A stretch of DNA of 64,000 bases from Acholoe squamosa (taxonomy: Eukaryota; Annelida; Polychaeta; Phyllodocida; Polynoidae): assembly GCA_949317995.1 (NCBI GenBank), contig OX439046.1, positions 55,841,774 to 55,905,773 of the forward strand, written 5' to 3'. Positions within the stretch are counted from its first letter, which is position 1; each line of letters starts with the position of its first letter. Under the pieces are notes generated by a model, which was not told where the DNA came from, did not search any database, and was given only the letters and a program-made list of their open reading frames with translations. The translations under genes and the position numbers were made by a program. Shown piece by piece: positions 28,616 through 55,839 of this stretch.

Positions 28616-28746
28616 TATCTCCCTTTCTCAAACCAGATACGGAGTATCGTAATACATATAATATCAACACCAGTAGTAAATGAAACATAGCACAACAATC
28701 TTTGTTGATATCAATATGAAAAATGAACTCGCAGTCTATATGTTAT

Positions 28747-33297: not shown

Positions 33298-33302
33298 TGA
33301 TG

Positions 33303-36951: not shown

Positions 36952-37006
36952 AGGTTTTCAGGGTTGGGCAGCTGTCGCAGTTACTGGAACGATGACCCAA
37001 AGGAAC

Positions 37007-37656
37007 TGTCAACGGACGGTTACATGTGGTGAAGTGAATGTACACGAAATCCAGGGAAGTTCAGTTGATCCTTTTATTGCATAGCTGACATGAGTGTTTC
37101 ATAAAGGTGGTAACAATGATAACACTCGCCAAGATCTAAGCTCTGCCTCTGATCCTATAGCTCAACCTGTCGTAGGTTCTAGGTATAGGTGTAAGGTGTA
37201 AGTTGGGAGAGATGACTGGGAGCTGCTCAAGCTGCCTTTTATATGAAAGACTTGAGCAGCTCACAGTGTTGTGAAATATTCTATACACGTGGCTCAATGA
37301 AATAGGGACACGTGTCATAGGGAGAGATTGCCACCTGTGTGTTAGTCATGTTGATGAGGGTTGAGAGGAGATTGTGAAATATTCTCTCATTCCAAATATG
37401 GCACCACAGGTGGATCGCACTTCCTCCAGTTACACTGTGTATGCGTACATAAGGTTGGAATGTTATTACATCCTTGTACCTTATGTCACAGAGTGTCATC
37501 GTGGAAGTGTGTTTGTGATGAGTAATGGATCCTGGTTCCTGTTGGGGAATGCAGGATGTTATTGAGTGTAGATCATGGGCAGAGCTCAGGTTTTATATGG
37601 CGAAGAATTTAGTAAATATGAAAAATAATTATAATACCCAGAATGGTCCATTGACA
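37007..37656 (-). repeat. 3' LTR of the giant element (650 bp)
   Basis: TGTCAACGGACGG to CATTGACA on the plus strand; paired with 55190-55839. A PPT-like AATGTGGGGATT abuts it on the minus strand (37657-37668). Confidence 0.96.
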
Positions 37657-37668
37657 AATCCCCACATT

Positions 37669-38532
37669 CCTACTCGTCTCTGCACGAGTGTAAAGGGAGA
37701 AAAATAAGCAGAAAAATAAGGCTTTGCCAAGTCCATTGACAATTATGGGTATTATGGTACATATACAAGGTTTTTGTGAAAATCTGACGAGTTTACATAA
37801 CATGCGGTATAATAAAAACGCTTCTTTCTGGGTTTGCAAGAATACGGTTCGTGTGGATCAGGTGACTTAATCTATGTACAGGTTATAAAGGTTACATGTT
37901 ATATGCTTATAATGTGTGCGTATGCCTGTTGTTTTGAAAGGATGGGAATTTTCTTGGTTTGGCGCATTGATATGCCAGGACTTGTTCATGTGAAAATTAA
38001 CTGGGGTCGGTAATTCTTGGTACTGTGGGGTCAAAGATCGGCACAAGAATGATTAATTTTTGGCTCCACACTACCAAGTTTATCTTGCAAAGTTAGTTAC
38101 GAGGTGAAAATTAAGGTGGAGTAGTGTATAACAGGGACGCAAAATATTCATCAAATATATATGAATGGGGTAAATAAAAACTTATTGCTATGGATTGCTA
38201 CTATGACTAAAACTCATAAATACATTTCATGGTTGAGCTTGAAAAACAATGGTGAAGGTGATGAACTTTATAGCGCCTAGAGTTAAACCAGGAGGCCATT
38301 TTGGTTTTTAGTCTCATAATGTTCATCAAAGGAGAGAAATCTTAAGCTAATATATACATTTGGCCTAAACAAAACAGGCTTTTTGAAGAATCCAGTGAAA
38401 AGGATTTGACATACTTGATAGAAAAAAAAAACTTTTATGTTCACAGAAAACAAAAGATACGTATAGGCATGGGGGTTGTTTACAACCGTATCTCAATGGT
38501 TGGGTAGTACAAGGATTGATTCTGTGAAATGT
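37669..38532 (-). other. 3' non-coding region of the giant element
   Basis: About 860 bases between the last accessory stop and the PPT. No open frame of note; it is AT-rich. Confidence 0.7.
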
Positions 38533-39232
38533 CTATTTGTGTGTTCTGAAATGTCGATTAGGGTGTATGCTATTTGGAGGTAGGTTTTGGTGTTCTTTGA
38601 TGTTGAAGTTCTTAAACCTGCCTTCAGCTTTACGATGGTTCCTGGATCTGATGGGTCTGAATTTTGAGATGGTAATGTCCGAAAAGTCTAGGTGTACTGA
38701 TGCTAAGTCACCAGCAGTGGCCACATCTGATCCGTCCTCTGAGGTTGTGTCTGTCTCTGTGGTGGGGCTAGGTCGAGCTGGCATGGGCCTCCACATGGTT
38801 CTGGGTGGGGACTGTTGCCTGTTGCCGCCTGGCTTAGGTTTATTGTCATAAGCGCAAGGGCACAGGAACCCATTTGGCTGATGGTAACATGGTATACAGA
38901 GTTTGGCGGCGGATACCTGTCCATTGATGTGGCGGCAGTAATTATTGGCGTGCCTGTAGGTTGGGGGCATGGGTGTCCCAGGCCTACGAGCTGCCGACAC
39001 ATAGGTTCCCCTGGGTGTTAGATGGGGCTTCCTAGCTGGCTCCCTCCACTGGCTGGTGGAAGTTGCTGCTGGGGCTCGGGGTCCGCGGCTGGTGGGGTTG
39101 GATTTGGCTTGACCTCTTCCATGCTGCTTCTTCTTCCTGTCGCCTTCCTGGACGATGATAGCCCCGGCTCGTCTTTCTCCAGGGCTGGAGGGCCGACGGA
39201 TGGTAGGGCTGCCAGGTCTCCAGAGGAGGGGT
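38533..39232 (-). CDS. giant element accessory ORF 2 (3' exon, basic, Cys/His cluster)
   Basis: An exon begins at 39232 after a strong acceptor (CTCTTCCCTACAG). In this frame about 233 codons follow. The N-terminal half is Arg/Pro-rich with a GDRKKKQHGRGQAK nuclear-localisation-like block. A CRHINGQ...C-x2-C-x12-C-x-C cluster in the middle may bind metal. The C-terminus is Ser/Thr/Asp-rich, then basic, with an LDFSDITISKF motif. The frame is set by the phase-2 donor of the leader exon at 44561, or an in-exon ATG at 39264 if unspliced. The family is not recognised. By position and character it resembles regulatory proteins of complex retroviruses; this is inference only. Confidence 0.6.
39018..39231 (-). 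CDS. alternative C-terminal env exon in an overlapping frame
   Basis: If the donor inside the env 3' end (40580, GATG|GTAGGT, phase 1) joins the acceptor at 39233, a second frame of about 70 codons opens, ending TAA at 39018. It is Pro/Ser/Glu-rich (PSVGPPALEKDEPG, PQQQLPPASGG), as expected of a cytoplasmic tail. It overlaps accessory ORF 2 in another frame. Inferred from splice signals only. Confidence 0.4.
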
Positions 39233-39720
39233 CTGTAGGGAAGAGAGCCGTGAAAACAAAGCATTAACAGAGGTGTGAAATCCTGCTTGGGTCAGCTGGT
39301 GGCCTTGTCAATACAGGATAACCAATAGGTGCTATGAATTTCAGCTGTTTGACACATAATATTAACTTGACAGAGCTCAATATGATTGCAAGAATAGAAA
39401 GCGGTAAGTGTAACTAAGCAAGCTTAGTTGGTTAATTTGTATCACACTGGGTGGCGGTACCGAGCTGTCGCTTCACCGTGCTGAACCTGATTATTCAGAT
39501 AAAAATCCTGAAAAATATTTCGAATAGTGGCCTAAAGTTTTATGAAGGTGGTTGAAAAAGGTCTTGGAAAATTTCGAGTTGTGGCATTCTGTTATACGGT
39601 ATGTTAACTGAATTTGAGGGTGGGGGTCGCGGGTTTGAAATAAATTTTGAGTTTTGATGCCTATAGCCTTGGTCCTATATAAGATATGGGTGCCGGCTAT
39701 CTTATCAGTAGTTACGCAAG
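39233..39720. other. non-coding, ends in the promoter of an antisense gene
   Basis: No retroelement frame is seen. On the plus strand CCTATATAAG lies at 39671-39680, about 30 bases before a TCAGT initiator-like motif (near 39706) and 41 bases before the ATG at 39721. Confidence 0.5.
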
Positions 39721-39968
39721 ATGGAGATCGTCCAAGGCGTTCTCCATTTCCCGGACGGTCGCGCCCTGTTGATCACAGTGTTCATCAACGAGGACGGGAC
39801 GTAAGTAATTTTGAATTGGTGGTTGTGTGAATTTATTTTGGAAAATTTTGAATCAGAAATTTGTTACGGGCTTTTTGGTAATTTCAATTTTGGATTTGTT
39901 TTTGTAGGATACATCAGGTCACCTACCTACTGCTGGCGCCTCAGGTGCCGGCAGTGAACGGCTTTTAG
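39721..39968 (+). CDS. small spliced antisense gene inside the giant element, 46 codons
   Basis: Exon 1 (39721-39800) ends GGAC|GTAAGT in phase 2. Exon 2 starts at 39908 after TTTTTGTAG and continues in frame to TAG at 39966-39968. The peptide starts MEIVQGVLHFPDGRALLITV and has a hydrophobic second half (VTYLLLAPQVPAV). A further donor (AAGAC|GTGAGT at 39976) and acceptor (TTGTTTTCAG, exon from 40038) suggest a non-coding third exon. With a TATA box upstream and three consistent splice junctions, an expressed gene is likely. It is antisense to the retroelement. No homologue recognised. Confidence 0.5.
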
Positions 39969-40547: not shown

Positions 40548-43378
40548 CTAATGGTTTAAAGTTTTAAAGAAAAACCTACCATCTATGGTGTTAATGGCCC
40601 TCTCAGCCAGTGTAGGGTCGAATAGGTATAGATCCTTGGGTGGTTGGGTTTCCCTGAGTTGTAGCAGGGCCATCTCTGCCGGAGTTGTCCCACTGGTGGA
40701 GGCTTTAGGGGCTTCCCGCCTGCTTAGGTCTTTTCTCCGTGTCAGAGGTGGCACTGGTTTGTAGCTGGCTGATAGTTCATATTCACTTGGTGTGAGTTGG
40801 AAGTCGGGCTGGTTTTCCTGTACAATGGCCAGGGTGACCGTGTGGGGTCTCGATCTGAGGATGATTGTGAGGGGGATCCACCAGAGCAAAGGGCAACTGG
40901 GGTATCTCTCCAGCCTCACCGTCCTCAGTCTTCCACCAATGATCATTCCGACGTCCGACTTCCAGTGCGCATCAAGATGACGGGCTAGGGGGAAAGTTAA
41001 CCTGGGTGGTGCTAGTTTGGGTGCCAAGATGGATGCTGGCCAAAGGTTCCTTCCATACACCATTAATCCCACTGGAAAGGCATATGTGTGCCCTCCAGAG
41101 TGTATCTTCAGCACGAATCTTGGTGTTCCGGGGGCGGGGTCCTGTCTGCCGTAGGGCCAATGCCTAAGACAGCGTCTTCCCGCCGCCTTGATGAATAACA
41201 AGCTGAGGATGATGCCTAGGAAGGCAATCATGGAATCATACCTTCCTGGCATCTGAATCCAGTCAGGTGTAGTGATCTCCTGGGGTGTGGTCCGCGTGGG
41301 CCAATTTTGGTTGGTATTTTTGATCATCTCTTTAAGCTTATTCCAAGATGCTGCGTCGGCCATCGTTGCTCGACTGTGAATGGTCACTAATTGGGCTAAG
41401 TATACCACGCGCATGTGTATGCGACACGTGATCAGGCAGCACAAGATGGCGATGGCTGGCGACAACAGGTGTAACCAAGGGGAGAACTCCAGGTGATATC
41501 CTAGATGTATGAGTGAGTTGGAGCTCAGGATGGATGATTTGTCATGAATTTTGGTGGCAGCGCCTTTTAAGTCTAAAATGTCCTTGAATAGGGGTAGGAA
41601 TTTTTGGTTGTGAAGGCGCTTCAGGCGCTGAAAATTTGGTAGGTCTAGGTGGGTCGGAGTGGTTGCTATGGTTACTCCTGATATGTTGTTTGGCGGGTTA
41701 CCAAAATGCTGCCATAGAGCCAAGTTGAAGGGCACTTTGGCGATAGGTTCTAAAGTAAAGTTTTGGGCGCAGGACAGGTCTGAGTTAATCATTATCATGC
41801 CTCTGTTTTTAAGGGAGCAGAGGCATGGTACTGAAATAATAGAGTAGGCTGCATTTTTTATCTCAATTTGGCCTGAGTTTGAGCATTGCATTATTGAAGG
41901 TGAAAAACTAGTGATGAGCAAGTAGGAGCTCTGGGAGATGGGCTTAGCAATGTTGGGAATTTGTGCTGTCATGTGGACCCGAAAATTGCAGGTGTTATGT
42001 ACAGCGTTGGGTAGGTCTAAAAATAAGGATAAGCTGCAGGTGGGGTGCCTAGGAGATAACATGGGCAGGGGCAGGTTGCATGTTATGAAAACATTTACAT
42101 CACAAAGATCTAAGTCAGAGTGATCCAGTTCAATGTAGTGTGACTGGGACGCAGACATGGCTATATAATCAGGCAATGGCTGTACTCGTGTAAACCCAGT
42201 AGTGTTTACATTGGTGGTATCAAATGGGACTGGGAAGGCCTCCGCTCTATATATGGAGTAGATATTGTCCCCCAGTCCTATGGGTATAGGCACTGTGATG
42301 TAAAGTTTGTTTTGGTCCTGCCAGTGCACATGCACTCTCCTTTGGTAGTAGAAACCGGTGGGTACCTTTAGAATTTTGATACCATTGTTGGATTCATACA
42401 AAGAGCTTGATAGATTATTAAGTCCATCTTCCATGACTTTATGTGGAATTAATTTTGGAGGTAGCTCGCCTTCCATTAGAGTGGTTAGTGAGTCCAGTAG
42501 GGTGTCTAAATCATTTTGCAGATTCATTAGCGCTTCAATTTGAGAGTTAGCAGCGGTAAATAACATCGAGTGATAGGTGTCCTGTCTGCTCTGTTGTTCC
42601 AGGTTGAATAAGATGTTTGATACATTCTTAGTCAACAGTTGGAGGTTGGAGCTGAGCAGAGCCAGGGCGTCATCCGTATCATTTTGCATGCTGGAGAAAA
42701 TACTCAAAGATTGATAATTAAATTCAGAAATGTTCAAGAGAAAATGTGTGGCTAATTCTACCACGTGCATTTTGGTGGCTAGAGTTTTCTCTAAGTCGAA
42801 CATTTCGGAATTCAACAAGTCTACTTCAGGTTGCGTGCTCAAGCCAATTGATGCTCTTAAAATATCACCTATGATTTGTCCTGGGGCGCCTCTGGGTGAC
42901 CTAGTTTGGGGATGTTCCAAAAATTTTATTAATAGGGCTAAAGATTTTTGAGATTTTTGGTAGAGATTTGCTAAAATTAGGTCTAAAGTTTGGGCGGTTT
43001 GTTTGTTTGTTTGTTTGTTTGTTTAGTTTTACGTCCGGGGGCCATCGAGGAACTCAGACATTCAAGGTTTCTCGGACATTAAGTCCTTTCTTTTTTTTTT
43101 TGGACAGGGCGGTTTCCAAGATAAAGTTTGGGGCGTTTTTGCTGATTTGGTAGGTTAATTTGTCCGGTCGCTGCAAGGATTGATTGAAGGATAGGTCTAA
43201 AGTGAAAACTAATGGGTAATCCATATATCCTGAGATCATTTTCTGGGGTATTTTGGTGAATAAAACACCATAGTTTGGCCTGAAGATGGTTTCTTCATTG
43301 GTTACAAAATCCTGTGCTCCTGACTGGTGGGTCTGGGCGCACAAGATTAGGAGGAGTGCTGCCAAGGAGGCTGCTGTC
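40548..43378 (-). CDS. env: F-type envelope-like glycoprotein of the giant element (interrupted)
   Basis: An acceptor (TTCTATTTTTAG, exon start 43378) opens a frame beginning with a hydrophobic LAALLLILCA signal-like segment; the start codon is expected in the leader exon at 44622. A 106-bp retroposed insertion (43001-43106) shifts the frame, and the reading resumes beyond it. From the resumed open frame (42920): a basic RSPR cleavage-like site at residues 7-10 followed by a Gly/Ile-rich fusion-peptide-like stretch; a long helical region (35-175); a Cys-rich region (273-384); a membrane segment (about 482-500); and another (562-580) with a 200-residue tail. The layout resembles the F/errantivirus envelope family, which mediates membrane fusion. 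Identification is by architecture, not by a search. Confidence 0.7.
43001..43106 (-). mobile_element. short retroposed insertion in env with (AAAC)n tail
   Basis: On the minus strand the insert ends in six AAAC units after GGCCCCCGGACGTAAAACT. It is flanked by a 9-bp TSD GGGCGGTTT (42992-43000, 43107-43115). The other end has an A tract. Size and tail suit a truncated SINE or LINE 3' end. The insert plus duplicated site is 115 bp, so it shifts the env frame. Confidence 0.8.
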
Positions 43379-43781
43379 CTAAAAATAGAAATTTAGATAA
43401 GCTTGTGAGAGATCGATCATATGAGGCTGAGATAGGACTGTTGTCTGGGGTGAGTCGGGTGTTCTAAGGGTGGGGTTGGGGGGGGGGGTTGGCTTTGTGT
43501 GAGGTATGTTTGTGTAGATTGGGCGGTGGTCGTCCTATACGTGTTTGGGTGTGTTGTTGGTTCAGTGTAGTGTGAATGTGGCGCTTCTGGGCGTGTTTAT
43601 TTAAAAGGTTATCAGTTTGCTAAGCTGATGCCTTAACTAGTAATGATGTCTCCATCTTAGTCATGTAAAAAGGTCGCGAGAAGAGAAAGGGGAAATGAAT
43701 TGAGGGGATTAATTGATTTTTCACGTCGTGAATGTGTAAAGGGGAGGGGGGGTAGAATGGGTCAATTTAGGGTTGATAGAG
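43379..43781 (-). other. intergenic segment between accessory ORF 1 and env
   Basis: Contains the polypyrimidine tract and acceptor of env near 43379. A G-rich run (43470-43490 on the plus strand) is the only other feature. Confidence 0.6.
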
Positions 43782-44265
43782 TTAACTGTATAAGTGGGAG
43801 TATCTAGCCATTTCAAACGCTGCCAGCTGAGTCTGAAGATTTGTTGATTGAATTATGACATTGTATCTGCCGATGCCTGTTTCATATCTTGGTAGCTCTT
43901 TAAGTGGTTTCTCTGAGGTAATCAGAGTCCTGGCACATAGGAGTGCTATATAGCTTGATGTTTCCTCACTGAATCTGTCCCACAATGGGACTGTGGGGAA
44001 ATCTTTGCATAGATCGAATATCATGGCCTTGGTGGCCGACAATATAATTGGGTCTTGTAGGGTGAGCTCTTTTTGAACTGTTTTGTTGTTTAGGTATACA
44101 CCTAAGTCGTCGCTGGATATACGTTTGATCATGTCTTTGTGCTCCATGATAGTTATTCTGATCTCGAACAGATCCATGGCCTTACTTTTGATGCCGTTTG
44201 GGCCTAAAAGACTGTGGATGGTCCACCCTGAGTTGGCTCCATGTCTAATCTCTGGGGCTCTAAGG
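43782..44265 (-). CDS. giant element accessory ORF 1, 3' exon
   Basis: An acceptor (TTATTATTCACAACAG) starts the exon at 44265, and 160 codons follow to a stop at 43782. With the leader exon the product would be 181 residues. It is a mixed alpha/beta-looking, non-membrane protein: RAPEIRHGANSGWTIHSLL near the start, MDLFEIRITIMEHKDMIKRI, and LAAFEMARYSHLY at the end. No Cys pattern or known domain was recognised. Its place between pol and env is where complex retroviruses carry small regulatory or infectivity genes; function unknown. Confidence 0.65.
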
Positions 44266-44560
44266 CTGTTGTGAATAATAAGAGAAAAATTTTGATAGGT
44301 TCGTTTTTAGACTAAGATAGAGGAAGGGGCTGGTGGGGGGTATTGTCAAGAGGTTGATAAATAAGGTTGTGAAAAGTCAGACTGCCATACATGGTTTTGA
44401 AAAAGGACTGCAAATTCAACTATTGCATTTTACAAAGCACTCTGGGCGCACACTACCATTGGCATGTAATGGGTATCTGGGCAACATGATGGTAGATTCC
44501 ATCATTGTCATGCTAGAACGATTGATGACGCTACTAATGGACACATAAGACAGATCCTAC
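44266..44560 (-). other. intron of accessory ORF 1
   Basis: Between donor CCCAG|GTAGGA (44560-44559) and acceptor CAACAG (ending 44266): 295 nt, with stops in all minus-strand frames. Confidence 0.55.
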
Positions 44561-44622
44561 CTGGGCTTGTTGCATGGCAGTCCCGACACTTGGGTCCTGT
44601 GGTCTCCGGATGCTTGCTCCAT
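44561..44622 (-). CDS. leader exon with shared start codon
   Basis: ATG at 44622 sits in an optimal CCACCATGG context. Twenty codons plus two bases (MEQASGDHRTQ..., ending Asn-Lys-Pro) run to a donor CCCAG|GTAGGA. The phase-2 end is compatible with three downstream acceptors: 44265 (accessory ORF 1), 43378 (env) and 39232 (accessory ORF 2). An acceptor-like CACACCCAG lies just 5' of the start, and a TATAAG motif about 65 nt upstream, so the exon may be reached by splicing from the 5' LTR or by an internal promoter. Confidence 0.6.
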
Positions 44623-45542: not shown

Positions 45543-48500
45543 CTATTTCTTTTTTTCTGTGGACTTTTTCCTTGTCTTCTTCTTTGGGGAAGGGGCAAAG
45601 GTGACAAGTCCTTTCTTTGCAGGTCGTCCTCTTTTCTTTTTGACTGCGGGGGATTCTGGTTCACCAATATGGGTGGAATCCAGATCAGGGTCATACAAGG
45701 TGTTGATTGGCCCAGACTGCAGTCTTTTGATTACAGCCTTGGCGCTAGCCTTGGTGATTGGTCTCCTTAATCTGGATACATGTATTGATTTTTTTAGTAC
45801 TTTACCATCTTGAAGCCTTTTTAATTTTGCAGTTACTGGTGAAGTCATTTTCATTATGATGTATGGTCCACTATAGGTGGGCTGCAGCTTTTTGCTCGTT
45901 TGTTTTACCAACAGGTTAGGTATGTGTAAATACACAAGCTGGCCTGTGTTGTAGGTGCATGGGGAAGCAGTGGCGTCAAATCTGGCTTTCATCTTTTTAT
46001 GGTGTTTGACCATGCTCTCAGCTGCCTTAAGTTGGATGTCATCTCTTAAGCTGAGTAAGGCGGTGACCAATTTTTCCTTGTCTTTGATCTCTTCAGTTTG
46101 TTTGACCAATGACAGGGAGGACTCAGTTGGGAGATGTGATTGCTTTCCAAACACCAAAAGACTGGGTGAGTATCCTAACACGCTGCATACGGTGTTGTTT
46201 ATGCTGAATGCTATAGCCTGTAGGAAGGTCGACCAATGTTTCTGTGATTTGGAGACAAAGGCTCTGAGTGAAGATTCTATTGTTTGATGTTGACGCTCAC
46301 ATAGACCTTGTGATTTTGACCAATGTGCACTCCCTGTCACATGTTTGATGCCGAATTTATCACAAAAAGATGTGAAATATTTGGACACATACTGTTTTGC
46401 GTTATCTGTGTTCAGGACTGACGGGGTTCCAAAAACACAGATAACCCTTTGGAAAAATCCTAGCGCTACTTCGGCGCTGGTGTTATCCTTTGTGGACCAA
46501 ACAGTGATGTGCCTGGTAGCATGATCTGTGACAACATGGATAAATGAGGATCCATCCACAGCAGGTGTGAAAGGACCGATGGTGTCCATGGTGAGGTGAG
46601 TGTAGGCTGTTAAAACAGGGTCTCTCAGGGTCATTGGGGTTCTCAAGTGTTTTGGTCTTTTCTTTGTTGTGAGACATGTGTGGCAAGTGCCACAGTAGTC
46701 AAAAACATTTTTGAACATGGAACGCCAATAATACCTGGATCTGATTGCTGCATACGTTTTAGTGGGACCAAGGTGTCCTCCTAATGGTGAGCAGTGTGTG
46801 GCCTCAATTAGTGATTCTGCCCATTTTTCTGGCATCACTATTTGTAGTGTAGGCTCCAAACTGTCTCCATAGGTTGATTTGGTGATCCTGAATAAAACTT
46901 TGTCTAAAATCATGAACTGGTCATGGTTTAGCAGTATCTGTTTACTAAGGCTTGGGTCCTCTGGTAATTCACCCTTATTGATGTATGACAGCATGGAGTT
47001 TGAGAAAACATCCTCCTGCTGTGCCTGTATCAGTGTCTCCCTGGATGGGGTTAGGGAGTGGTGTTTACATAGCTGGCTTATCACTCGTTCAGCCATGGGT
47101 AGCACTTTGTGTGATAGCTTAGCCCTTCTGGTATTAGCTAATTTCACTGATACTCTGGGTGACCTAGATTTTGGTGGTCGGCCCCTTGTTTTGGTCTTGG
47201 TGTCCTTGACGTTAGGGGGGCAGGTCTGTTTACTTCTGGTTGATTTGCTGGGCTGAGGGGGTGTGACTGGATCTGGTAACTTGGCTTTAGATCGAGTCAG
47301 AATGCACAGCTCGGGCACGGTTTGATTGGAGCTGAGTTTTTCTCTCTCAGAGCTACCTTTCTTGGCAATCACACCCTTTGGCTTCTTGGAAGTGCTACCC
47401 CAAGTCTGTCCTCCTTTTAGTATGGACCTAGGTGGTCCCATGAGGACTGGATTTTTGGGAATTGGGTCGTTTGATTTGAAGACTTTGGTCATGGTAATGT
47501 CGGAGAATCTGACTGATTTAGGAGGGAGTATTATTCTACCTTGAGACCTGATGGGAATTGGATCATCAGAGCTGGGCGGGTATTTCCTTCTGGAAAGGAA
47601 GTCTGCCACAATGTTGGCTCTGCCTTGCAGGTATCTGACTTCAAAGTCGTAGGACATGACTGTGTCGACCCACCTGGCTAACCTTCCATTGGTTATGTTT
47701 TCCTTTTTGTTGAAAAGGGAAACCAGGGCGGTGTGGTCCGAGTATACCTTGAAGTGAGTTCCATCCACATAATGGTGGAACTTTTTGACTGCAAAAACTA
47801 TTCCTAACAGTTCTTTGTCAGTTATCCCATACCTAGACTCTTGAGGTGTCAAGCCTCTCCCTGCAAATTCAATCGGTCTATAGAAACCATGGTCGTCTAC
47901 TTGAGTGATTACAGCTCCTAGGCTGTAGTTGCTCGAGTCAGTAAAAATGACAAAAGGTCTATTATAGTCCGGGAATTTCAGCACAGCTTCAGTACAGATA
48001 GCAGCTTTAATTTTCTCAAAGGCTCTCTGGCACTCAGTGGTCCATTTAAAGGTGCTTTTCGTCGCCTCATAAAGGGGCTTCATGACATGAGCAAAACCTC
48101 TGATGAACCTTTTGTAAAACTGCGCCATACCATTGAAACATCTAAGATCATGGATGTTTTTAGGTGGGGGGAAGGTTTTGACAGGTCCTATTTTGTCCGG
48201 GGATGGTGACAAACCATGCTGGTCTACATTGAAACCCAAAAATTCCATTTTGGTAGTTCCAAATTCGCACTTTTCTGATTTCAGTTTGATGTTACCTCTG
48301 ATAAAAAGTTTTAAAACCTCGTCCAGATCTTGTAAGTGCCTTTCCCACGTGGGGCTGTAAATGGCTACATCATCTACATATGCTACAGCATTTTTATACT
48401 TGCATTTCATGAGAAGTTGCTCCATTACATTCATGAAGGATAGGCCTGAAGTTTTGAGTCCCATAGGGAGAACTTTTGCCATGTATCTCGTGCCATTGGC

Positions 48501-50048
48501 GGAGAAGGTGGTAAGTGGCCTAGATTCTTCTGCTAGGGGAATCTGGTGGTAGGCGCTGTAGACATCCAATTTGGAAAAATACTTGGCGCCCGTTCTGCCT
48601 ATCTGCTGCATGAGGTCGTCAGCTCTGGGGAATGAGTAAGAGAAGGTTTTTAAATTCTCATTTACCCATCTGTTGTCAACTACAATTCTCCAACCAGAGG
48701 CTACTGACCTGTCACCTTGTGGTTTTGGCACTAAAAAGGCGGGTGAGTTCCACTCACAGGGTTTGGTACACTCTTCTATTATCCCCTGTTCTAAATGTTT
48801 TTTCAGGAGTTCCCTTTGAAAAATTTCTTTGTGAGGGGACATCCTATACGACGGTCTGTTGCAGGGTTTGAAGTCTGGCTTTAATTCCAGCTTGACTTCA
48901 TTTTCTACATTGAGACCTATGGCGCTTTCATTTAGGACAAAGGCTTGCCTATTGGCCTCAACAATGTTTTTGATCTGTTGTCTTTGAATTTCAGAGAGTT
49001 TTTCACAGATTTTATACTTCAAAGGTTCATTCCCTTTGGGGAGTTGGTCCATGGGATCCTCTCCACAATTGATTGGGAATAAGTCCTTTTCTGTTGTTAC
49101 ACTGTTGAGTGAATGGGCGCTATTGAGTGCACCAATGGGTACAGCCTTTTTGATGTTGAAAAGTCTAAATACACCGAGGTTCATGTGTCTTTTTATCTTG
49201 ATGGGGAAGTCATTTGGGTTAGCTACTGTTACTGGTACTATTTTAAGGTCTGATCTAGGTTTAACTATTGCGTGCTTAATAAGTACCGGTAGGGTAGAAC
49301 CTGAGTTCTCAGTCAATCCAGTTTTTCCCACAATGTTGCTATTCCCTATCACGACCGCATTGAAAGTGGCTTCAGTGTTTGGTGGGATATCAACATTTTT
49401 GTTCGCCCTGATGTAGTTGGGCGATGGGGGGGTCGGTCCAAAGGAAATTTTGGCTTTGTATTTGGTCATGAAGTTTACTCCTAAAATTAGGGGATGGTTC
49501 AGTTCAGGTACCACATGGAATCTGGATCTGAATTCATGGCCACCAATGAGGAAAGTTACAGTCATGGAGTGATTTACTTGGATGGGGGTTTTATCAGCCA
49601 ATAAAACTGTCAGTCGCGCGCGTCTCCCGTGTTTAAAATTTGGTGTGCTCGCGATTTTGTCAGCCATTTTTTGGCTAATAAAGGAAAGTGAGGCGCCTGA
49701 GTCAACAAGAGCTCTATACAAGTGGTTATTTATGTCTACAGAAACTGCACCTTTGGTTAATTCTGTATCAACGTAAATGGCCTTACCTTGCTGCCCATAC
49801 TGCTCAGATTTGATCCGCAGTTTCAGGATTGAAGTCCTTTGGCTCTGGTCCTCGTACTCGTCCTCGTCATCACTGGAGTCTGAAGTCTCATTGGTATTCA
49901 AGAAGTTGGTATAATCCGAACTGGATGATTGGGAGTCTACTGAATTCATTTGTGCATCAGCATCTCGAGAAGTGTCCTTGGATAATTCGATGGTCGTGGT
50001 CCGGTTGGGGTCGGGGTCACTAGGTGCTTGAGTGCCTTCCCCTGATCC
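45543..50048 (-). CDS. pol: giant element pol: protease, RT, RNase H, integrase
   Basis: The frame follows the in-frame TAG at 50049. Numbering from the first Met (49949): acidic leader; protease LVDSGASLSF (83-85 DSG); RT with AFLVPKP, LDVYSAYHQIPL and YVDD at 524-527; RNase H with FTDSSNYSLGAV near 670; an unusually long linker (about 800-950) with KSVRFSDITM and an AT-hook-like RGRPPK; integrase H...H...C-x2-C (near 1052-1092), MDTIGPF, NTDNAKQY and GLCERQHQTIESSL; and a basic tail with a second RGRPAKK. All catalytic residues are present. The last 30 residues are Lys-rich. It makes and integrates the cDNA. Confidence 0.96.
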   Translation of the reverse strand, partial: GSGEGTQAPSDPDPNRTTTIELSKDTSRDADAQMNSVDSQSSSSDYTNFLNTNETSDSSDDEDEYEDQSQRTSILKLRIKSEQYGQQGKAIYVDTELTKGAVSVDINNHLYRALVDSGASLSFISQKMADKIASTPNFKHGRRARLTVLLADKTPIQVNHSMTVTFLIGGHEFRSRFHVVPELNHPLILGVNFMTKYKAKISFGPTPPSPNYIRANKNVDIPPNTEATFNAVVIGNSNIVGKTGLTENSGSTLPVLIKHAIVKPRSDLKIVPVTVANPNDFPIKIKRHMNLGVFRLFNIKKAVPIGALNSAHSLNSVTTEKDLFPINCGEDPMDQLPKGNEPLKYKICEKLSEIQRQQIKNIVEANRQAFVLNESAIGLNVENEVKLELKPDFKPCNRPSYRMSPHKEIFQRELLKKHLEQGIIEECTKPCEWNSPAFLVPKPQGDRSVASGWRIVVDNRWVNENLKTFSYSFPRADDLMQQIGRTGAKYFSKLDVYSAYHQIPLAEESRPLTTFSANGTRYMAKVLPMGLKTSGLSFMNVMEQLLMKCKYKNAVAYVDDVAIYSPTWERHLQDLDEVLKLFIRGNIKLKSEKCEFGTTKMEFLGFNVDQHGLSPSPDKIGPVKTFPPPKNIHDLRCFNGMAQFYKRFIRGFAHVMKPLYEATKSTFKWTTECQRAFEKIKAAICTEAVLKFPDYNRPFVIFTDSSNYSLGAVITQVDDHGFYRPIEFAGRGLTPQESRYGITDKELLGIVFAVKKFHHYVDGTHFKVYSDHTALVSLFNKKENITNGRLARWVDTVMSYDFEVRYLQGRANIVADFLSRRKYPPSSDDPIPIRSQGRIILPPKSVRFSDITMTKVFKSNDPIPKNPVLMGPPRSILKGGQTWGSTSKKPKGVIAKKGSSEREKLSSNQTVPELCILTRSKAKLPDPVTPPQPSKSTRSKQTCPPNVKDTKTKTRGRPPKSRSPRVSVKLANTRRAKLSHKVLPMAERVISQLCKHHSLTPSRETLIQAQQEDVFSNSMLSYINKGELPEDPSLSKQILLNHDQFMILDKVLFRITKSTYGDSLEPTLQIVMPEKWAESLIEATHCSPLGGHLGPTKTYAAIRSRYYWRSMFKNVFDYCGTCHTCLTTKKRPKHLRTPMTLRDPVLTAYTHLTMDTIGPFTPAVDGSSFIHVVTDHATRHITVWSTKDNTSAEVALGFFQRVICVFGTPSVLNTDNAKQYVSKYFTSFCDKFGIKHVTGSAHWSKSQGLCERQHQTIESSLRAFVSKSQKHWSTFLQAIAFSINNTVCSVLGYSPSLLVFGKQSHLPTESSLSLVKQTEEIKDKEKLVTALLSLRDDIQLKAAESMVKHHKKMKARFDATASPCTYNTGQLVYLHIPNLLVKQTSKKLQPTYSGPYIIMKMTSPVTAKLKRLQDGKVLKKSIHVSRLRRPITKASAKAVIKRLQSGPINTLYDPDLDSTHIGEPESPAVKKKRGRPAKKGLVTFAPSPKKKTRKKSTEKKK

Positions 50049-51151
50049 CTATTCATCTTGTGTGTTATTGGGGCTGTCATTGTCGGCTTCAGACTGAGAC
50101 CCTGAATGGCTTCTGGAGTAGTTCCTGCCTGGGGTTGGATCTCTGGATTTCTTCAATGACTGTTGTACCCAATTGTCTGGGATGGTGAAGTCAGCTGGGA
50201 CCATGAAGGAGACATTCTTATTGTTGTTTGGCTGTCCAGCAACTGGTATGAAGACGAAACTTTTGTTGCTATCAGAGGATCTTGATCTTTGTTCTGATCT
50301 ATCTTTTGACCTATCTCTTCCTGGGGACTTATAGTCGGATCTATTTTTGGAATTAGATCTGTAGTCCTTTGGATTGGATTTGTCTGAGGATTTGGACCTT
50401 CCTCTGTAGCCGTTTTTGAATTTATTTTCATACTGTTTGTTGTAATTACTACTGGGCAGTCTGTCTTCTTTCTTGTGGTCGCGCTGATATTTATCCTTTC
50501 TGGATCTGTCGTCGTTCTTGTTGTAGCCTACAGCACATAACTCTGCTGAGCTGTTCTGAGCAATTTTTATGGCTTCGAGGTTTAGTTCTTGATTTATGGC
50601 CAATTGTTCAGCTTCCAGCAAGGTTTTGGGAGATTTGGCTACAACAACATTTTTCAGCTCGGGTCTGAGGCCATTTACAAGGTAGTCCACTTGTGAGGCC
50701 TCGTCCAGGCTGCTGTTGGACAACAACATGGTCATGTCTGCTAGGTAGTCCTCAGTGGTTTCATTTGGCTTTTGCTTCCTGGCTCTGTATCCTTTGAGGA
50801 TGGTGCTGAGGTCGGGAGTGCCAAACCTCGCCAAGAAAGCTTCATAGACGGCGTCATTGTTTTGCATGATGGGCTTGTCCATTATATTGCTGAAAAACCA
50901 CTGAGCTGCCCTTCCTTTGAGAAAGGTGTACAGGCAAGTTGCATGTAGGTCGGGCCTCTTGGCGTGCACATTCCTTATGAAGAATTTAAATTCAGTCAGA
51001 AATTTTGCTGCAGACCTGTAGGGCGTTGGTTTGTCAAAGGGTTCAGGCTTATTGAATGATCCTAGCTGGGCAGATGTGAGCTTGTCGCTGTCAATTCTAC
51101 TAGGGGGAAATCTGGTATACTCAGCGCCATGGTATCCTCCCTGGTGCACTA
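49025..51151 (-). repeat. 2127-bp tandem duplication, 3'-proximal copy
   Basis: Matches 51152-53278 with only a few differences (for example ATCAACGTAA/ATCAATGTAA and TTACACTG/TTACCCTG). The junction at 51151/51152 joins GTGCACTA to GTTCATTCCC with no clear microhomology. The length is 709 codons, so the reading frame is kept. Confidence 0.97.
50049..50051 (-). other. second in-frame UAG (duplicated gag-pol stop)
   Basis: Same context as 52176-52178 (GAA TAG GGA). It precedes the frame encoding the main RT. Confidence 0.9.
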
Positions 51152-52175
51152 GTTCATTCCCTTTGGGGAGTTGGTCCATGGGATCCTCTCCACAATTGAT
51201 TGGGAATAAGTCCTTTTCTGTTGTTACCCTGTTGAGTGAATGGGCGCTATTGAGTGCACCAATGGGTACAGCCTTTTTGATGTTGAAAAGTCTAAATACA
51301 CCGAGGTTCATGTGTCTTTTTATCTTGATGGGGAAGTCATTTGGGTTAGCTACTGTTACTGGTACTATTTTAAGGTCTGATCTAGGTTTAACTATTGCGT
51401 GCTTAATAAGTACCGGTAGGGTAGAACCTGAGTTCTCAGTCAATCCAGTTTTTCCCACAATGTTGCTATTCCCTATCACGACCGCATTGAAAGTGGCTTC
51501 AGTGTTTGGTGGGATATCAACATTTTTGTTCGCCCTGATGTAGTTGGGCGATGGGGGGGTCGGTCCAAAGGAAATTTTGGCTTTGTATTTGGTCATGAAG
51601 TTTACTCCTAAAATTAGGGGATGGTTCAGTTCAGGTACCACATGGAATCTGGATCTGAATTCATGGCCACCAATGAGGAAAGTTACAGTCATGGAGTGAT
51701 TTACTTGGATGGGGGTTTTATCAGCCAATAAAACTGTCAGTCGCGCGCGTCTCCCGTGTTTAAAATTTGGTGTGCTCGCGATTTTGTCAGCCATTTTTTG
51801 GCTAATAAAGGAAAGTGAGGCGCCTGAGTCAACAAGAGCTCTATACAAGTGGTTATTTATGTCTACAGAAACTGCACCTTTGGTTAATTCTGTATCAATG
51901 TAAATGGCCTTACCTTGCTGCCCATACTGCTCAGATTTGATCCGCAGTTTCAGGATTGAAGTCCTTTGGCTCTGGTCCTCGTACTCGTCCTCGTCATCAC
52001 TGGAGTCTGAAGTCTCATTGGTATTCAAGAAGTTGGTATAATCCGAACTGGATGATTGGGAGTCTACTGAATTCATTTGTGCATCAGCATCTCGAGAAGT
52101 GTCCTTGGATAATTCGATGGTCGTGGTCCGGTTGGGGTCGGGGTCACTAGGTGCTTGAGTGCCTTCCCCTGATCC
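50049..52175 (-). CDS. duplicated protease/gag-C chimera created by the tandem duplication
   Basis: Beginning after the TAG at 52176, this frame reads the protease region (LVDSGASLSF) as in the main pol. At the duplication junction (51151) it enters a second copy of the gag capsid and Arg/Ser-rich region and ends at a second TAG (50049). Translation through both UAGs would give a polyprotein with two gag-C and two protease units. Not a natural gene arrangement; the result of duplication. Confidence 0.9.
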   Translation of the reverse strand, partial: GSGEGTQAPSDPDPNRTTTIELSKDTSRDADAQMNSVDSQSSSSDYTNFLNTNETSDSSDDEDEYEDQSQRTSILKLRIKSEQYGQQGKAIYIDTELTKGAVSVDINNHLYRALVDSGASLSFISQKMADKIASTPNFKHGRRARLTVLLADKTPIQVNHSMTVTFLIGGHEFRSRFHVVPELNHPLILGVNFMTKYKAKISFGPTPPSPNYIRANKNVDIPPNTEATFNAVVIGNSNIVGKTGLTENSGSTLPVLIKHAIVKPRSDLKIVPVTVANPNDFPIKIKRHMNLGVFRLFNIKKAVPIGALNSAHSLNRVTTEKDLFPINCGEDPMDQLPKGNELVHQGGYHGAEYTRFPPSRIDSDKLTSAQLGSFNKPEPFDKPTPYRSAAKFLTEFKFFIRNVHAKRPDLHATCLYTFLKGRAAQWFFSNIMDKPIMQNNDAVYEAFLARFGTPDLSTILKGYRARKQKPNETTEDYLADMTMLLSNSSLDEASQVDYLVNGLRPELKNVVVAKSPKTLLEAEQLAINQELNLEAIKIAQNSSAELCAVGYNKNDDRSRKDKYQRDHKKEDRLPSSNYNKQYENKFKNGYRGRSKSSDKSNPKDYRSNSKNRSDYKSPGRDRSKDRSEQRSRSSDSNKSFVFIPVAGQPNNNKNVSFMVPADFTIPDNWVQQSLKKSRDPTPGRNYSRSHSGSQSEADNDSPNNTQDE

Positions 52176-53278
52176 CTATTCATCTTGTGTGTTATTGGGG
52201 CTGTCATTGTCGGCTTCAGACTGAGACCCTGAATGGCTTCTGGAGTAGTTCCTGCCTGGGGTTGGATCTCTGGATTTCTTCAATGACTGTTGTACCCAAT
52301 TGTCTGGGATGGTGAAGTCAGCTGGGACCATGAAGGAGACATTCTTATTGTTGTTTGGCTGTCCAGCAACTGGTATGAAGACGAAACTTTTGTTGCTATC
52401 AGAGGATCTTGATCTTTGTTCTGATCTATCTTTTGACCTATCTCTTCCTGGGGACTTATAGTCGGATCTATTTTTGGAATTAGATCTGTAGTCCTTTGGA
52501 TTGGATTTGTCTGAGGATTTGGACCTTCCTCTGTAGCCGTTTTTGAATTTATTTTCATACTGTTTGTTGTAATTACTACTGGGCAGTCTGTCTTCTTTCT
52601 TGTGGTCGCGCTGATATTTATCCTTTCTGGATCTGTCGTCGTTCTTGTTGTAGCCTACAGCACATAACTCTGCTGAGCTGTTCTGAGCAATTTTTATGGC
52701 TTCGAGGTTTAGTTCTTGATTTATGGCCAATTGTTCAGCTTCCAGCAAGGTTTTGGGAGATTTGGCTACAACAACATTTTTCAGCTCGGGTCTGAGGCCA
52801 TTTACAAGGTAGTCCACTTGTGAGGCCTCGTCCAGGCTGCTGTTGGACAACAACATGGTCATGTCTGCTAGGTAGTCCTCAGTGGTTTCATTTGGCTTTT
52901 GCTTCCTGGCTCTGTATCCTTTGAGGATGGTGCTGAGGTCGGGAGTGCCAAACCTCGCCAAGAAAGCTTCATAGACGGCGTCATTGTTTTGCATGATGGG
53001 CTTGTCCATTATATTGCTGAAAAACCACTGAGCTGCCCTTCCTTTGAGAAAGGTGTACAGGCAAGTTGCATGTAGGTCGGGCCTCTTGGCGTGCACATTC
53101 CTTATGAAGAATTTAAATTCAGTCAGAAATTTTGCTGCAGACCTGTAGGGCGTTGGTTTGTCAAAGGGTTCAGGCTTATTGAATGATCCTAGCTGGGCAG
53201 ATGTGAGCTTGTCGCTGTCAATTCTACTAGGGGGAAATCTGGTATACTCAGCGCCATGGTATCCTCCCTGGTGCACTA
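51152..53278 (-). repeat. 2127-bp tandem duplication, 5'-proximal copy
   Basis: Counterpart of 49025-51151. It contains gag-C, the UAG and the acidic leader/protease. Confidence 0.97.
52176..52178 (-). promoter_or_regulatory. in-frame UAG between gag and pol, probable readthrough site
   Basis: gag and pol lie in one frame separated only by TAG. The next base is G (TAG GGA), the context of known UAG readthrough in gammaretroviruses. Six bases later a GGGG...CCCC stem with an inner CACT/AGTG stem can form (about 52135-52170). The open pol frame runs 34 codons before its first Met, which argues that pol is made as a gag-pol fusion. Confidence 0.65.
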
Positions 53279-53513
53279 CCGGTGTGGAGTGTGCTATATG
53301 ATCATACCTAGGAGGATATGGTAGTCCAGAATGGTTGCTTGTGTGTCCTTGGGGACTGTTTACAAACACCATTAACCACATGGCCACCGTGTTGATTTGG
53401 ATTAGGCGCAGTGTTACAAGACGTTGTCGCCCCCTGGTGGGTGTTTGGTGCACCAGCTGTTGGAGATTGGTGCAGTGCATGTGATGCTGTGTATTGATTG
53501 TCTTTGAAGGCAT
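52176..53513 (-). CDS. gag: giant element gag, C-terminal part (capsid and RS-rich tail)
   Basis: Contains the retrotransposon gag domain: FDKPTPYRSAAKFLTEF, AAQWFFSNIM, YEAFLARFGTPDLSTILKG, ARKQKPNETTEDYLADM and VDYLVNGLRPELKN. The C-terminus is Arg/Ser/Asp/Lys-rich (SPGRDRSKDRSEQRSR) with no CCHC knuckle, so RNA binding is probably by the basic tail. The frame overlaps the upstream gag frame by about 200 bases with a one-base offset. A frameshift, programmed or mutational, near 53310-53400 joins them. Confidence 0.9.
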   Translation of the reverse strand: MPSKTINTQHHMHCTNLQQLVHQTPTRGRQRLVTLRLIQINTVAMWLMVFVNSPQGHTSNHSGLPYPPRYDHIAHSTPVVHQGGYHGAEYTRFPPSRIDSDKLTSAQLGSFNKPEPFDKPTPYRSAAKFLTEFKFFIRNVHAKRPDLHATCLYTFLKGRAAQWFFSNIMDKPIMQNNDAVYEAFLARFGTPDLSTILKGYRARKQKPNETTEDYLADMTMLLSNSSLDEASQVDYLVNGLRPELKNVVVAKSPKTLLEAEQLAINQELNLEAIKIAQNSSAELCAVGYNKNDDRSRKDKYQRDHKKEDRLPSSNYNKQYENKFKNGYRGRSKSSDKSNPKDYRSNSKNRSDYKSPGRDRSKDRSEQRSRSSDSNKSFVFIPVAGQPNNNKNVSFMVPADFTIPDNWVQQSLKKSRDPTPGRNYSRSHSGSQSEADNDSPNNTQDE

Positions 53514-55137
53514 GTGGTGGGCTCATACCTGCTCCTGTCATGTCGTTGTGGCTGGTGCTGTAGTCAGGTGCCGTGGGGTAAGGTGGAGTGGATTGTGCCT
53601 GTCCTGAATTACCTTGGGCGCCGGTGGCGGTTTGGTTGGAGTTGGTGGCGTCGGCACCGTTTGAATGGCTTTGAATGGCCCTCATTAGGTCAAGCCTCAT
53701 TGAGTCCATGTTTTTGCTGAGCTGGTCAGTCATTTGATATGTGAAATCCTCGGATCTTCTGAGAACTTCCATATTGCTCTGTTCTGCCTGCCTGAAATTG
53801 TGGGCGGTGTTGCTTTCCATATGCTCCTTCCAACGTTCCATGTCATCTAACCTGAGGTGTACTCTAGCCAATTGGTCTGAGTGTTCCTGTCCATGATTTT
53901 TAATTTCAGTGGATAGGGTGCTCACGTGCTTGGCCAGTAGCTCAGAGAGAGATTCGCTGACGGCGCTTGTACAGTCTCTGACAAGACTTCTTCTCATGTC
54001 CTCCTGGTCATACTGAGGGGGGTGACCTCTGGACATTGCCATGTTGGGTCGGAGGGGAAAGGTCACTTCAGTATCTCCTCCAGGTGAATTGATGAGGAGA
54101 GGTGAGTTGTAAGGCGTCCTATTGCCTCTGTTGAGTAGCGGGGTTGTAGCTACGAGGTGAGACCTACTTGTAGCTCCGTCCACACTTCTCAGTAGTCTGT
54201 AACCAGTGGGGGTTCTTCTTCTAAGAGGTGAATTTGATTGGACCCTCCTTCTAAATCTAGAGCCTTGTCTTGGTGGTGAGTCCACTGACCTGGTTCTAAG
54301 TGGCTGTGTAGGTGTGTACACAGGTGGGGGGTACGGGTCCTCCTCTTCAGAAGTGGATTGGTATCGGTTTGGCTGGGTAACGGTAGGGTCAAGCCACTCG
54401 TCCAATAGTCTATTAATGTTGAGTGAGAAGTTTGGATTGTCTCCTACCGGGTGTCCAGAGTTGTTATTGGAAACCCTGCCTACACCGTTTTCATAGGCTG
54501 CTCTCCACCTAGAAACTGCTGATCCGATTCTGTCTCTCCAGTAATCAGCGTCCAGGGAAGCGTCAGAGTCTGTGTCTACAACCACTGGCTCCTCACAAAC
54601 TGGTGGTTTATGTGAAGTTACACTTGGGTCAGTTTGTGCTGCAGATGCAGCTTCACTAGGTGTTGTGGGTTGTGGGGGAGTTATGTCCTGGAGGGCGGCT
54701 TGAAGCTCTGGTGTTCTGTCCTCCAGGTGTGGGTCGAGGTACAGGTGGCTTTGTGTATTGTCCACAGGTACTTCAGAGGTTGGGCTAGTTATACCAGAAA
54801 GTCTTAGTGGCGGTGAATTTACTTGTGAGTAACCAGGTAAGGTGATGTCTAATCCTGGTGCAGGTAGTGATACTGGGGTACTGGTGTGTGCTCCAGTGTT
54901 GTGATCCACTATTGTAGAGGAAAATTGTTCAATACCGGTACTCACAGGTTGTAATACGTGGGCTTGCAGTGCTATAGGTAAAACTGGATCCAATGTCAGT
55001 GCGTCTGGAGATGAAGTTTGTCTCTGGAGGGGATGTGTAGTATCACTTGTGGGGTGGTTGGGCGCGTCTAGCCCAGGTGATGTAAAGGTGCGTTGTTTTG
55101 AAGCTGGCTCCTTAGGTGATGTCTCACTATTGCTCAT
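53308..55137 (-). CDS. gag: giant element gag, N-terminal part
   Basis: The start ATG at 55137 (AACATGAGCAA) lies about 50 bases from the LTR. 609 codons, Pro/Ser/Thr-rich and disordered in the first 350 residues (TPPQPTTPSEAASAAQTDP), Arg-rich around 290-320, then a coiled-coil-like segment (near 410-490, DDMERWKEHMESN, QLSKNMDSMRLDLMRAI). No domain is recognised before the capsid region in the next frame. Very long for a Gypsy gag N-terminus. Confidence 0.85.
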   Translation of the reverse strand: MSNSETSPKEPASKQRTFTSPGLDAPNHPTSDTTHPLQRQTSSPDALTLDPVLPIALQAHVLQPVSTGIEQFSSTIVDHNTGAHTSTPVSLPAPGLDITLPGYSQVNSPPLRLSGITSPTSEVPVDNTQSHLYLDPHLEDRTPELQAALQDITPPQPTTPSEAASAAQTDPSVTSHKPPVCEEPVVVDTDSDASLDADYWRDRIGSAVSRWRAAYENGVGRVSNNNSGHPVGDNPNFSLNINRLLDEWLDPTVTQPNRYQSTSEEEDPYPPPVYTPTQPLRTRSVDSPPRQGSRFRRRVQSNSPLRRRTPTGYRLLRSVDGATSRSHLVATTPLLNRGNRTPYNSPLLINSPGGDTEVTFPLRPNMAMSRGHPPQYDQEDMRRSLVRDCTSAVSESLSELLAKHVSTLSTEIKNHGQEHSDQLARVHLRLDDMERWKEHMESNTAHNFRQAEQSNMEVLRRSEDFTYQMTDQLSKNMDSMRLDLMRAIQSHSNGADATNSNQTATGAQGNSGQAQSTPPYPTAPDYSTSHNDMTGAGMSPPHAFKDNQYTASHALHQSPTAGAPNTHQGATTSCNTAPNPNQHGGHVVNGVCKQSPRTHKQPFWTTISS

Positions 55138-55189
55138 GTTTAATGAGAGGTTGGTAGTGGGATATTCTTGGAGGGTTCATCCACCATCG

Positions 55190-55839
55190 TGTCAACGGAC
55201 GGTTACATGTGGTGAAGTGAATGTACACGAAATCCAGGGAAGTTCAGTTGATCCTTTTATTGCATAGCTGACATGAGTGTTTCATAAAGGTGGTAACAAT
55301 GATAACACTCGCCAAGATCTAAGCTCTGCCTCTGATCCTATAGCTCAACCTGTTGTAGGTTCTAGGTATAGGTGTAAGGTGTAAGTTGGGAGAGATGACT
55401 GGGAGCTGCTCAAGCTGCCTTTTATATGAAAGACTTGAGCAGCTCACAGTGTTGTGAAATATTCTATACACGTGGCTCAATGAAATAGGGACACGTGTCA
55501 TAGGGAGAGATTGCCACCTGTGTGTTAGTCATGTTGATGAGGGTTGAGAGGAGATTGTGAAATATTCTCTCATTCCAAATATGGCACCACAGGTGGATCG
55601 CACTTCCTCCAGTTACACTGTGTATGCGTACATAAGGTTGGAATGTTATTACATCCTTGTACCTTATGTCACAGAGTGTCATCGAGGAAGTGTGTTTGTG
55701 ATGAGTAATGGATCCTGGTTCCTGTTGGGGAATGCAGGATGTTATTGAGTGTAGATCATGGGCAGAGCTCAGGTTTTATATGGCGAAGAATTTAGTAAAT
55801 ATGAAAAATAATTATAATACCCAGAATGGTCCATTGACA
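55190..55839 (-). repeat. 5' LTR of the giant element (650 bp)
   Basis: Carries a TATAAAAG box (55419-55426, minus strand) placed between the arms of a perfect 12-bp inverted repeat (GAGCTGCTCAAG, 55403-55414; complement 55434-55445). The primer-binding site candidate, just inside, reads TGGTGGATGAACC (55175-55187) after a 2-base spacer; tRNA not identified. Confidence 0.95.
55419..55426 (-). promoter_or_regulatory. LTR TATA box in an inverted repeat
   Basis: TATAAAAG, the probable core promoter of the element's genomic RNA. The flanking 12-bp arms are exact reverse complements and conserved in both LTRs. Confidence 0.65.

Follow-up and report, generated by a model that had tools for sequence, protein, structure and literature searches.

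A young env-bearing Ty3/Gypsy endogenous retrovirus lineage with two apparent accessory genes in the annelid Acholoe squamosa

Errantiviruses are usually 7–9 kb long and lack accessory genes, and their envelope gene (env) is expressed from a spliced message. Accessory regulators, a second promoter and alternative splicing are textbook features of some vertebrate retroviruses, and foamy viruses carry an internal promoter. In excerpts of the literature, 289 representative metazoan errantiviruses are mentioned (PMC13172572), foamy-like fish endogenous retroviruses (ERVs) are stated to reach 17 kb (PMC6431247), and ORF3 capture is described for rotifer elements (PMC5408684). Cer1 of C. elegans, a Ty3/Gypsy element, encodes CERV, which according to an excerpt of its description is made from a spliced message, is nuclear, contains a Cys finger and is required for the export of genomic RNA (PMC10309623). 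Here we analyze a provirus-like element on the minus strand of a 64,000-nucleotide stretch of the genome of the polynoid annelid Acholoe squamosa (GenBank assembly GCA_949317995.1, contig OX439046.1, positions 55,841,774 to 55,905,773), which is termed the window. Relatives of this element may be included among the envelope-carrying gypsy elements that were reportedly described by Chary and Hayashi in 2025 from metazoans outside the insects; to our knowledge, no exogenous relatives are known in the animal group of the host.

We propose that the element represents a young, multi-copy, env-bearing lineage of Ty3/Gypsy endogenous retroviruses, which is about 16.5 kb in size, has two accessory genes of its own, termed p131 and p243, and would be expressed as outlined below. 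We put the probability of this reading at roughly 0.72. An earlier inspection of the window from its letters alone (the sequence-only reading) had reported 650-bp long terminal repeats (LTRs), a 4-bp target-site duplication (TSD), gag, pol, an F-type env and two accessory frames, all on the minus strand, and each of them was confirmed. The domains that Pfam recognizes on this strand are a gag capsid, an aspartic protease (PR), a reverse transcriptase (RT), an RNase H (RH), an integrase (IN) with SH3_Tf2-1, and Baculo_F. They are arranged as gag-PR-RT-RH-IN-env, as in Ty3/Gypsy elements, and within Pol the sequence is RVP, RVT_1, RT_RNaseH(_2), Integrase_H2C2 and rve, with RT and RNase H of the gypsy type. 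The classification as an env-bearing Ty3/Gypsy element (Metaviridae-type) is supported: the element shows the PR-RT-RNase H-IN order, LTRs with TG...CA ends and a TSD of 4 bp, where 4–6 bp are expected. Membership in Troyka, defined in an excerpt of its description by a 3-bp TSD and CG...CG termini (PMC12440569), was rejected because of the 4-bp TSD and the TG...CA ends. The two LTRs of the window copy are 99.69% identical, which corresponds to 2 mismatches over 650 bp. By pattern matching only, the 5' LTR contains TATAAAAG at LTR position about 414 and AATAAA at 579.

Further copies were retrieved from the whole genome, which comprises 63 contigs and 1.48 Gb. Its mitochondrial contig has the gene order nad3-nad2-cox1-cox2-cox3 when read with code 5, which fits annelids. 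Four sister copies, retrieved together with both of their LTRs, are 16,601, 16,514, 16,194 and 16,506 bp long; between the two LTRs of each there are 3, 3, 2 and 0 differences, respectively, over about 650 sites. An exact TSD of 4 bp flanks two of them, and in the other two 3 of the 4 letters agree. The near-identical LTR pairs and the sister lengths of 16.2–16.6 kb thus point to a young family of elements that measure about 16.5 kb. The 18.8 kb given by the sequence-only reading turned out to be the private size of the window copy, which is inflated by a tandem duplication and an env insertion of ~0.1 kb. The 2,127-bp duplication repeats parts of the gag capsid and the protease; it is single in five of the six sister copies examined, with no match at this place in the sixth. 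Moreover, the window copy itself is defective, since its gag and env frames are broken.

Both accessory frames recur throughout the family. p131 was matched in 150/150 scored places at 95–100% identity, 142 of them stop-free, and p243 in 150/150 scored places at 90–100%, with 131 stop-free. These counts, like those for gag and env given below, cover the best-scoring places only, which favors intact copies and to that extent weakens the argument. We then calculated the ratio of non-synonymous to synonymous substitution rates (dN/dS) pairwise and pooled over copies, with limits obtained by bootstrap over codons. Besides the window copy, the calculation drew on six copies read in pieces, on eight loci for env and one for gag, and on 20 pieces of p243. 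Left out were loci L001–L007, which are the same copies, as well as L016 and L018–L021. The values are 0.32 (0.20–0.49) for the N-terminal and 0.08 (0.04–0.14) for the C-terminal part of gag, 0.16 (0.11–0.21) for pol, and 0.16 (0.06–0.46) and 0.14 (0.10–0.20) for the N-terminal and the main part of env. For p131 the ratio is 0.17 (0.05–0.46), and for p243 it is 0.26 (0.18–0.38) at a dS of 0.12 in up to 35 copies. Both accessory genes thus appear to be under purifying selection. Copies without the accessory frames, or frames without constraint, had been named beforehand as outcomes that would speak against the sequence-only reading, and neither was observed.

p131 is invariant at 117 of its 131 residues. 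p243 is basic (isoelectric point 10.9) and contains a Cys/His cluster and an acidic stretch, both mostly invariant. Searches of Pfam, PHROGs, NCBIfam, a protein collection, viral contigs and PDB, all of them sources without annotated animal genomes, returned nothing reliable for either protein, and kin in other animals are therefore possible. A single PDB match of p243, to a dioxygenase (E 0.035), was taken as chance. As a side observation, three p131 copies lie on the same strand about 3.3 kb apart at C7:48391797-48398858, a local tandem amplification in or near one copy of the element.

Long open gag and env frames occur in many of the scored copies. A Gag frame of 996–1020 codons is found in 55 of 72 scored places and is stop-free in 42 of these; the usual length of Gag among them is about 998 codons. 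The 609-aa frame of the window copy was considered as a separate leader gene and rejected, since it corresponds to the N-terminus of Gag in most scored copies. The UAG at the end of gag and its context are kept in 7/7 copies read, with pol in the same frame, and at one scored place gag is open into pol in a frame of 2,248 codons. Synthesis of Gag-Pol by readthrough of the UAG is the likely reading. A 114-aa frame at 45350–45694 looks accidental, because the sister frames at that place vary in length. Env is encoded by a stop-free frame of 903–934 codons in 40/57 scored places, and the 824 codons from stop to stop in the window compare with about 909 in most scored copies. A protein search, in which 7,997 candidates were scored, found three relatives of Env with 23–27% identity, two of them labelled Baculo_F. 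In PDB, Env matched a viral fusion protein, and this only weakly (E 0.013), and the viral contigs, when searched with Env, p131 and p243, yielded no relatives. The tail of Env (window 40548–41400, behind the hydrophobic stretches) has a short motif, LKIHSGG / LEITSGG, in common with two distant relatives.

The five sister env frames that were read (5/5) have no Met ahead of the signal peptide, and directly upstream of the frame they read TTTCTATTTTTAG/G (TTTGTAG in one copy). We propose the following mode of expression. The LTR promoter would produce the genomic RNA, from which Gag and, by reading through the in-frame UAG, Gag-Pol would be translated. A shorter transcript would start at a second promoter, located between pol and env, and its small leader exon would provide the start codon. 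This leader would be spliced alternatively to three acceptors of the same phase, which would result in a p131-coding message and in messages for Env and p243. Given its basic charge, the Cys/His cluster and the acidic stretch, p243 might be a nuclear regulator, either a transactivator or an RNA-export factor, and p131 might be a small soluble helper.

For the leader exon, which the sequence-only reading had also invoked, there is a plausible candidate (Table 1). Its ATG, in a Kozak-type context between pol and p131, is kept in 27/27 copies and the GT of its donor in 28/28. The donor leaves two codon letters, a phase that fits all three acceptors (p131, env and p243). Nucleotide diversity (pi) is 0–0.03, with no indels in 27 copies, at 44400–44619, compared to 0.04–0.12 at 44280–44399 and 0.015–0.30 at 44620–44919, with indels present in most 20-nt windows. 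Moreover, invariant residues of p243 number 3/11 before acceptor A3 and 141/232 after it. Splicing of the leader to the three acceptors would fit these data. The same holds for the spliced env claimed earlier: the leader and a conserved in-phase acceptor agree with it, and the splicing itself is predicted from the sequence. The putative internal promoter consists of consensus matches to CCAAT and TATA motifs, the latter about 70 nt ahead of the leader ATG. TATAAR occurs at 11 places and CCAAT at 34 on the sense strand of the window copy, and the motif pair is therefore suggestive of a promoter but not proof. Three further candidates were rejected. The conserved block at 44400–44560, in which subfamilies hardly differ among the 27 copies and which has no coding signature, was considered as a structured RNA but folds no better than shuffles (z 0.46); a splice from GTGAGA at 55128 with the gag ATG to env would be in the wrong phase; and LTR-like motifs in the putative internal promoter reduce to shared words that are about as frequent as expected.

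Several observations weigh against this mode of expression. p243 has an ATG of its own that is kept in 35/35 copies. The stretch that acceptor A1 would add to p131 is unconstrained (2 synonymous and 14 non-synonymous variants), which leaves the ATG of the p131 frame itself as a possible start. The codons of the leader lack a coding signature (3 synonymous, 5 non-synonymous). In a crude scan, four distinct-or-duplicated donor sites outscored the leader donor, the strongest being AAG/GTAAGG at 49786/51913 (kept in 7/7 copies), and A2 ranked only 17th among the acceptors by score; such motif matches are weak evidence. Finally, folding behind the gag UAG is no better than that of shuffles (z -0.76 and 0.83), and a structured readthrough signal was rejected on these grounds.

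The alternative that survives best dispenses with the internal promoter. Env and the accessory genes would then derive from LTR-driven transcripts that undergo splicing, possibly in two rounds, a mode known from errantiviruses and complex retroviruses. We give this a serious chance, somewhat short of even. It has a precedent in Cer1, whose CERV is spliced from the main transcript (excerpt of PMC10309623). Conserved donor-like sites do exist upstream, both at 49786 and in the GTGAGA at 55128 (7/7 copies each), and an AG just ahead of the Kozak context of the leader is found in 26/26 copies. However, the stretch ahead of this AG is not pyrimidine-rich, the donor sites close to the 5' end have low scores (2.7 at best), and the strongest donor is inside pol, behind gag, so that translation would begin with the upstream gag. 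The TATA motif about 70 nt ahead of the leader ATG likewise speaks against this alternative.

It is unlikely, although less so than the two possibilities discussed next, that we are dealing with an ordinary errantivirus-type element, merely enlarged, from the same clade as other env families of this genome. The F-type env (Baculo_F, E 2e-9), its apparent splicing and the 4-bp TSD would agree with this, but instead of a simple gag-pol-env layout of about 7–9 kb the family shows 16.2–16.6 kb and, in addition, p131 and p243. Other Baculo_F env families of the genome appear as repeated frames of 713, 664 and 727 codons, with 72 of 191 candidates scored; this list is incomplete, as the env of the window is absent from it. 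In each of the first two families a single copy was measured, at 8,863 and 8,919 bp, respectively, with no comparable extra frames, and in the piece read from the third (727 codons) env follows directly after pol. The Pol proteins of the three families are 34–48% identical among themselves, whereas their identity to Pol of the window element is only 21–34%, which compares with 23–31% between the latter and an env-less gypsy element of the window. A Pol tree of five rows gave no resolved placement. Since its Pol is no closer to the three env families than to the env-less gypsy, the window element appears to be a separate Ty3/Gypsy lineage, as far as tested, and its membership in the errantiviruses is doubtful. 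Like complex Retroviridae (spumaviruses), it has accessory genes apparently under selection, p131 and p243, whose regulatory role is putative.

The accessory frames might also be captured or left-over sequences without a role of their own, which are open because the family is young. The LTR pairs differ at only 0–3 of 650 sites, no relatives of p131 or p243 were found, and the control frames are partly in line with such a view. Shifted-frame controls (n=14) gave dN/dS ratios of 0.62–5.32, with 13/14 at values of at least 1.0, and non-coding control frames (n=12) gave 0.36–1.56. The upper limit of p131 thus overlaps the lowest controls, a further point against the reading we favor. However, non-coding stretches of the same copies show indels and divergence, whereas p131 has 0 indel positions (43907–44206, 15 copies), which together with its few stops adds support to the constraint on p131. 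For p243, the ratio given above contrasts with 1.66 and 1.02 in its shifted frames. We therefore regard an origin as mere left-over sequence as quite improbable. Equally improbable is an assembly error as the source of the 18.8 kb and of the unusual gag-pol layout. The two units of the 2,127-bp duplication do lie in tandem, with 99.9% identity, and were found in the window copy only, but an artefact could concern this duplication alone, and the layout of 16.2–16.6 kb recurs in copies on four other chromosomes.

The coordinates of all features are listed in Table 1. Scanning 240-nt windows of the intergenic stretches for hidden genes revealed stops in nearly all frames and no consistent sign of constraint, so that further genes there were rejected, and Rfam yielded 0 matches at gathering scores. 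The surroundings of the element within the window are rich in other repeats. A BEL/Pao element (20561–33867, plus strand) with DUF1759 gag, Peptidase_A17, RT and integrase has LTR ends that match at 99.8–100% and CTACT on both outer sides; it sits within an array of a 172-bp satellite (18477–20561 and 33868–34664). Nested in its 3' LTR is the small env-less Ty3/Gypsy element (28451–33298, minus strand; LTR of 166 bp at 99.4%, Pol of 1063 aa), and between two frames of the BEL/Pao element there is a palindrome-like inverted repeat of ~490 bp (23564–24050), which is 81.7% identical to its own reverse complement. Moreover, the window contains a tandem array of 7.8 copies of a 96-bp unit (16991–17742) and a 744-aa frame with RVT_1 (63–2297, E 2e-34) that is probably a non-LTR element.

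Table 1. Features of the element and of its putative expression signals (positions in the window).
Feature	Position	Strand	Remark
Whole provirus-like element, window copy	37007..55839	-	LTR pair and TSD
5' LTR, 650 bp	55190..55839	-	TG...CA ends
3' LTR, 650 bp	37007..37656	-	2 differences from 5' LTR
TSD GAAC	55840..55843; other copy 37003-37006	.	4 bp, outside both LTRs
gag, N-terminal part, 609-aa frame	53308..55137	-	frameshifted relative to next gag part in window copy
gag, C-terminal part with capsid domain, UAG end	52176..53513	-	Retrotrans_gag E 2e-6
Tandem duplication, first unit	51152..53278	-	2,127 bp
Tandem duplication, second unit	49025..51151	-	99.9% identical to first unit
Hybrid frame from duplication: protease, then second gag capsid	50049..52076	-	Pfam
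pol, PR-RT-RNase H-IN-SH3	45543..50048	-	Pfam; in frame of gag, directly after gag UAG
CCAAT motif, putative internal promoter	44770..44784 (CCAAT at 44780)	-	kept in 27/27 copies
TATA motif TTATAAG, putative internal promoter	44684..44698 (at 44692)	-	TATAA in 25/26 copies
Putative shared leader exon, ATG in GCCACCATGG context, 62 nt	44561..44622	-	donor CAG/GTAGGA at 44560
Conserved non-coding block behind donor	44400..44560	-	pi 0-0.03, 0 indels, 27 copies
Putative acceptor A1 (AG), in phase with leader and p131	44265..44266	-	kept in 35/35 copies
p131, 131 aa from own ATG, within putative env intron	43782..44177	-	accessory gene
Putative acceptor A2 (AG) for env, in phase with leader	43379..43380	-	kept in 15/15 copies
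env, N-terminal part: signal peptide and F2-like part	43054..43378	-	dN/dS region 43380-43108
env insertion of ~106 bp, GGGCGGTTT repeats at both sides	43001..43106	.	missing from 14/14 sisters
env, main part: fusion-peptide-like start, Baculo_F, two hydrophobic stretches, long C-terminal tail	40548..42920	-	Baculo_F E 2e-9
p243, 243 aa from own ATG	38533..39264	-	accessory gene
Putative acceptor A3 (AG) inside p243, in phase with leader	39233..39234	-	kept in 34/35 copies

In its widest form, our reading would mean that a Metaviridae lineage has evolved the whole regulatory plan of complex retroviruses independently: an internal promoter, constitutive or regulated, one leader with three acceptors, p243 as an early regulator with feedback on expression or on the export of RNA, and Gag-Pol made by readthrough. 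This extension is tentative, and we hold it to be possible but on balance not probable. If true, the complex-retrovirus plan would have arisen more than once, here in a gypsy element of an invertebrate, and the family would allow the order in which env and the regulators were acquired to be read from related genomes. Moreover, p131 and p243, as families without detectable kin, would be candidates for new proteins of RNA export, transactivation or host interaction. To the sequence-only reading, size, accessory genes and splicing together had seemed undescribed. As a combination, no published description of these features was found in the open-licence literature searched, and excerpts from two surveys of annelids contain no mention of such an element (PMC8556966, PMC8220671), but the single traits have precedents, such as the spliced third-gene product CERV of Cer1 and the giant env-carrying gypsy element Burro with its accessory ORFs.

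With errantiviruses and the env-carrying gypsy elements of insects (gypsy, ZAM), the window element has in common a Ty3/Gypsy gag-pol, an F-type env and an env that is apparently expressed from a spliced message. It differs from them in being about twice as long, in its two apparently constrained accessory genes, in the in-frame UAG by which Gag-Pol would be made, and in the putative leader exon, which lies between pol and env but near the 5' end in errantiviruses. Cer1 is likewise a Ty3/Gypsy element with an extra gene beyond gag-pol, spliced in Cer1 and putatively so here; in the excerpt describing it, however, CERV replaces env and has N-terminal exons in common with Gag, and the genomic RNA has no stop between gag and pol (PMC10309623). 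Murine leukaemia virus, in contrast, has gag and pol in one frame parted by a UAG and makes Pol by readthrough (excerpt of PMC5778647), as we infer for the window element. Foamy viruses and foamy-like fish ERVs resemble it in gag-pol-env followed by a downstream accessory gene and in their large size (excerpt of PMC6431247), but they belong to the Retroviridae and have a different Env, and the putative promoter of the window element precedes env and would drive it, too. Finally, the planarian giant gypsy-like element Burro is, like the window element, from an invertebrate and combines env homology with accessory ORFs. According to an excerpt of its description, it exceeds 30 kb and carries env within one huge polyprotein between gag and pol, together with cellular domains (PMC6431247), whereas the window element has separate genes of small size.

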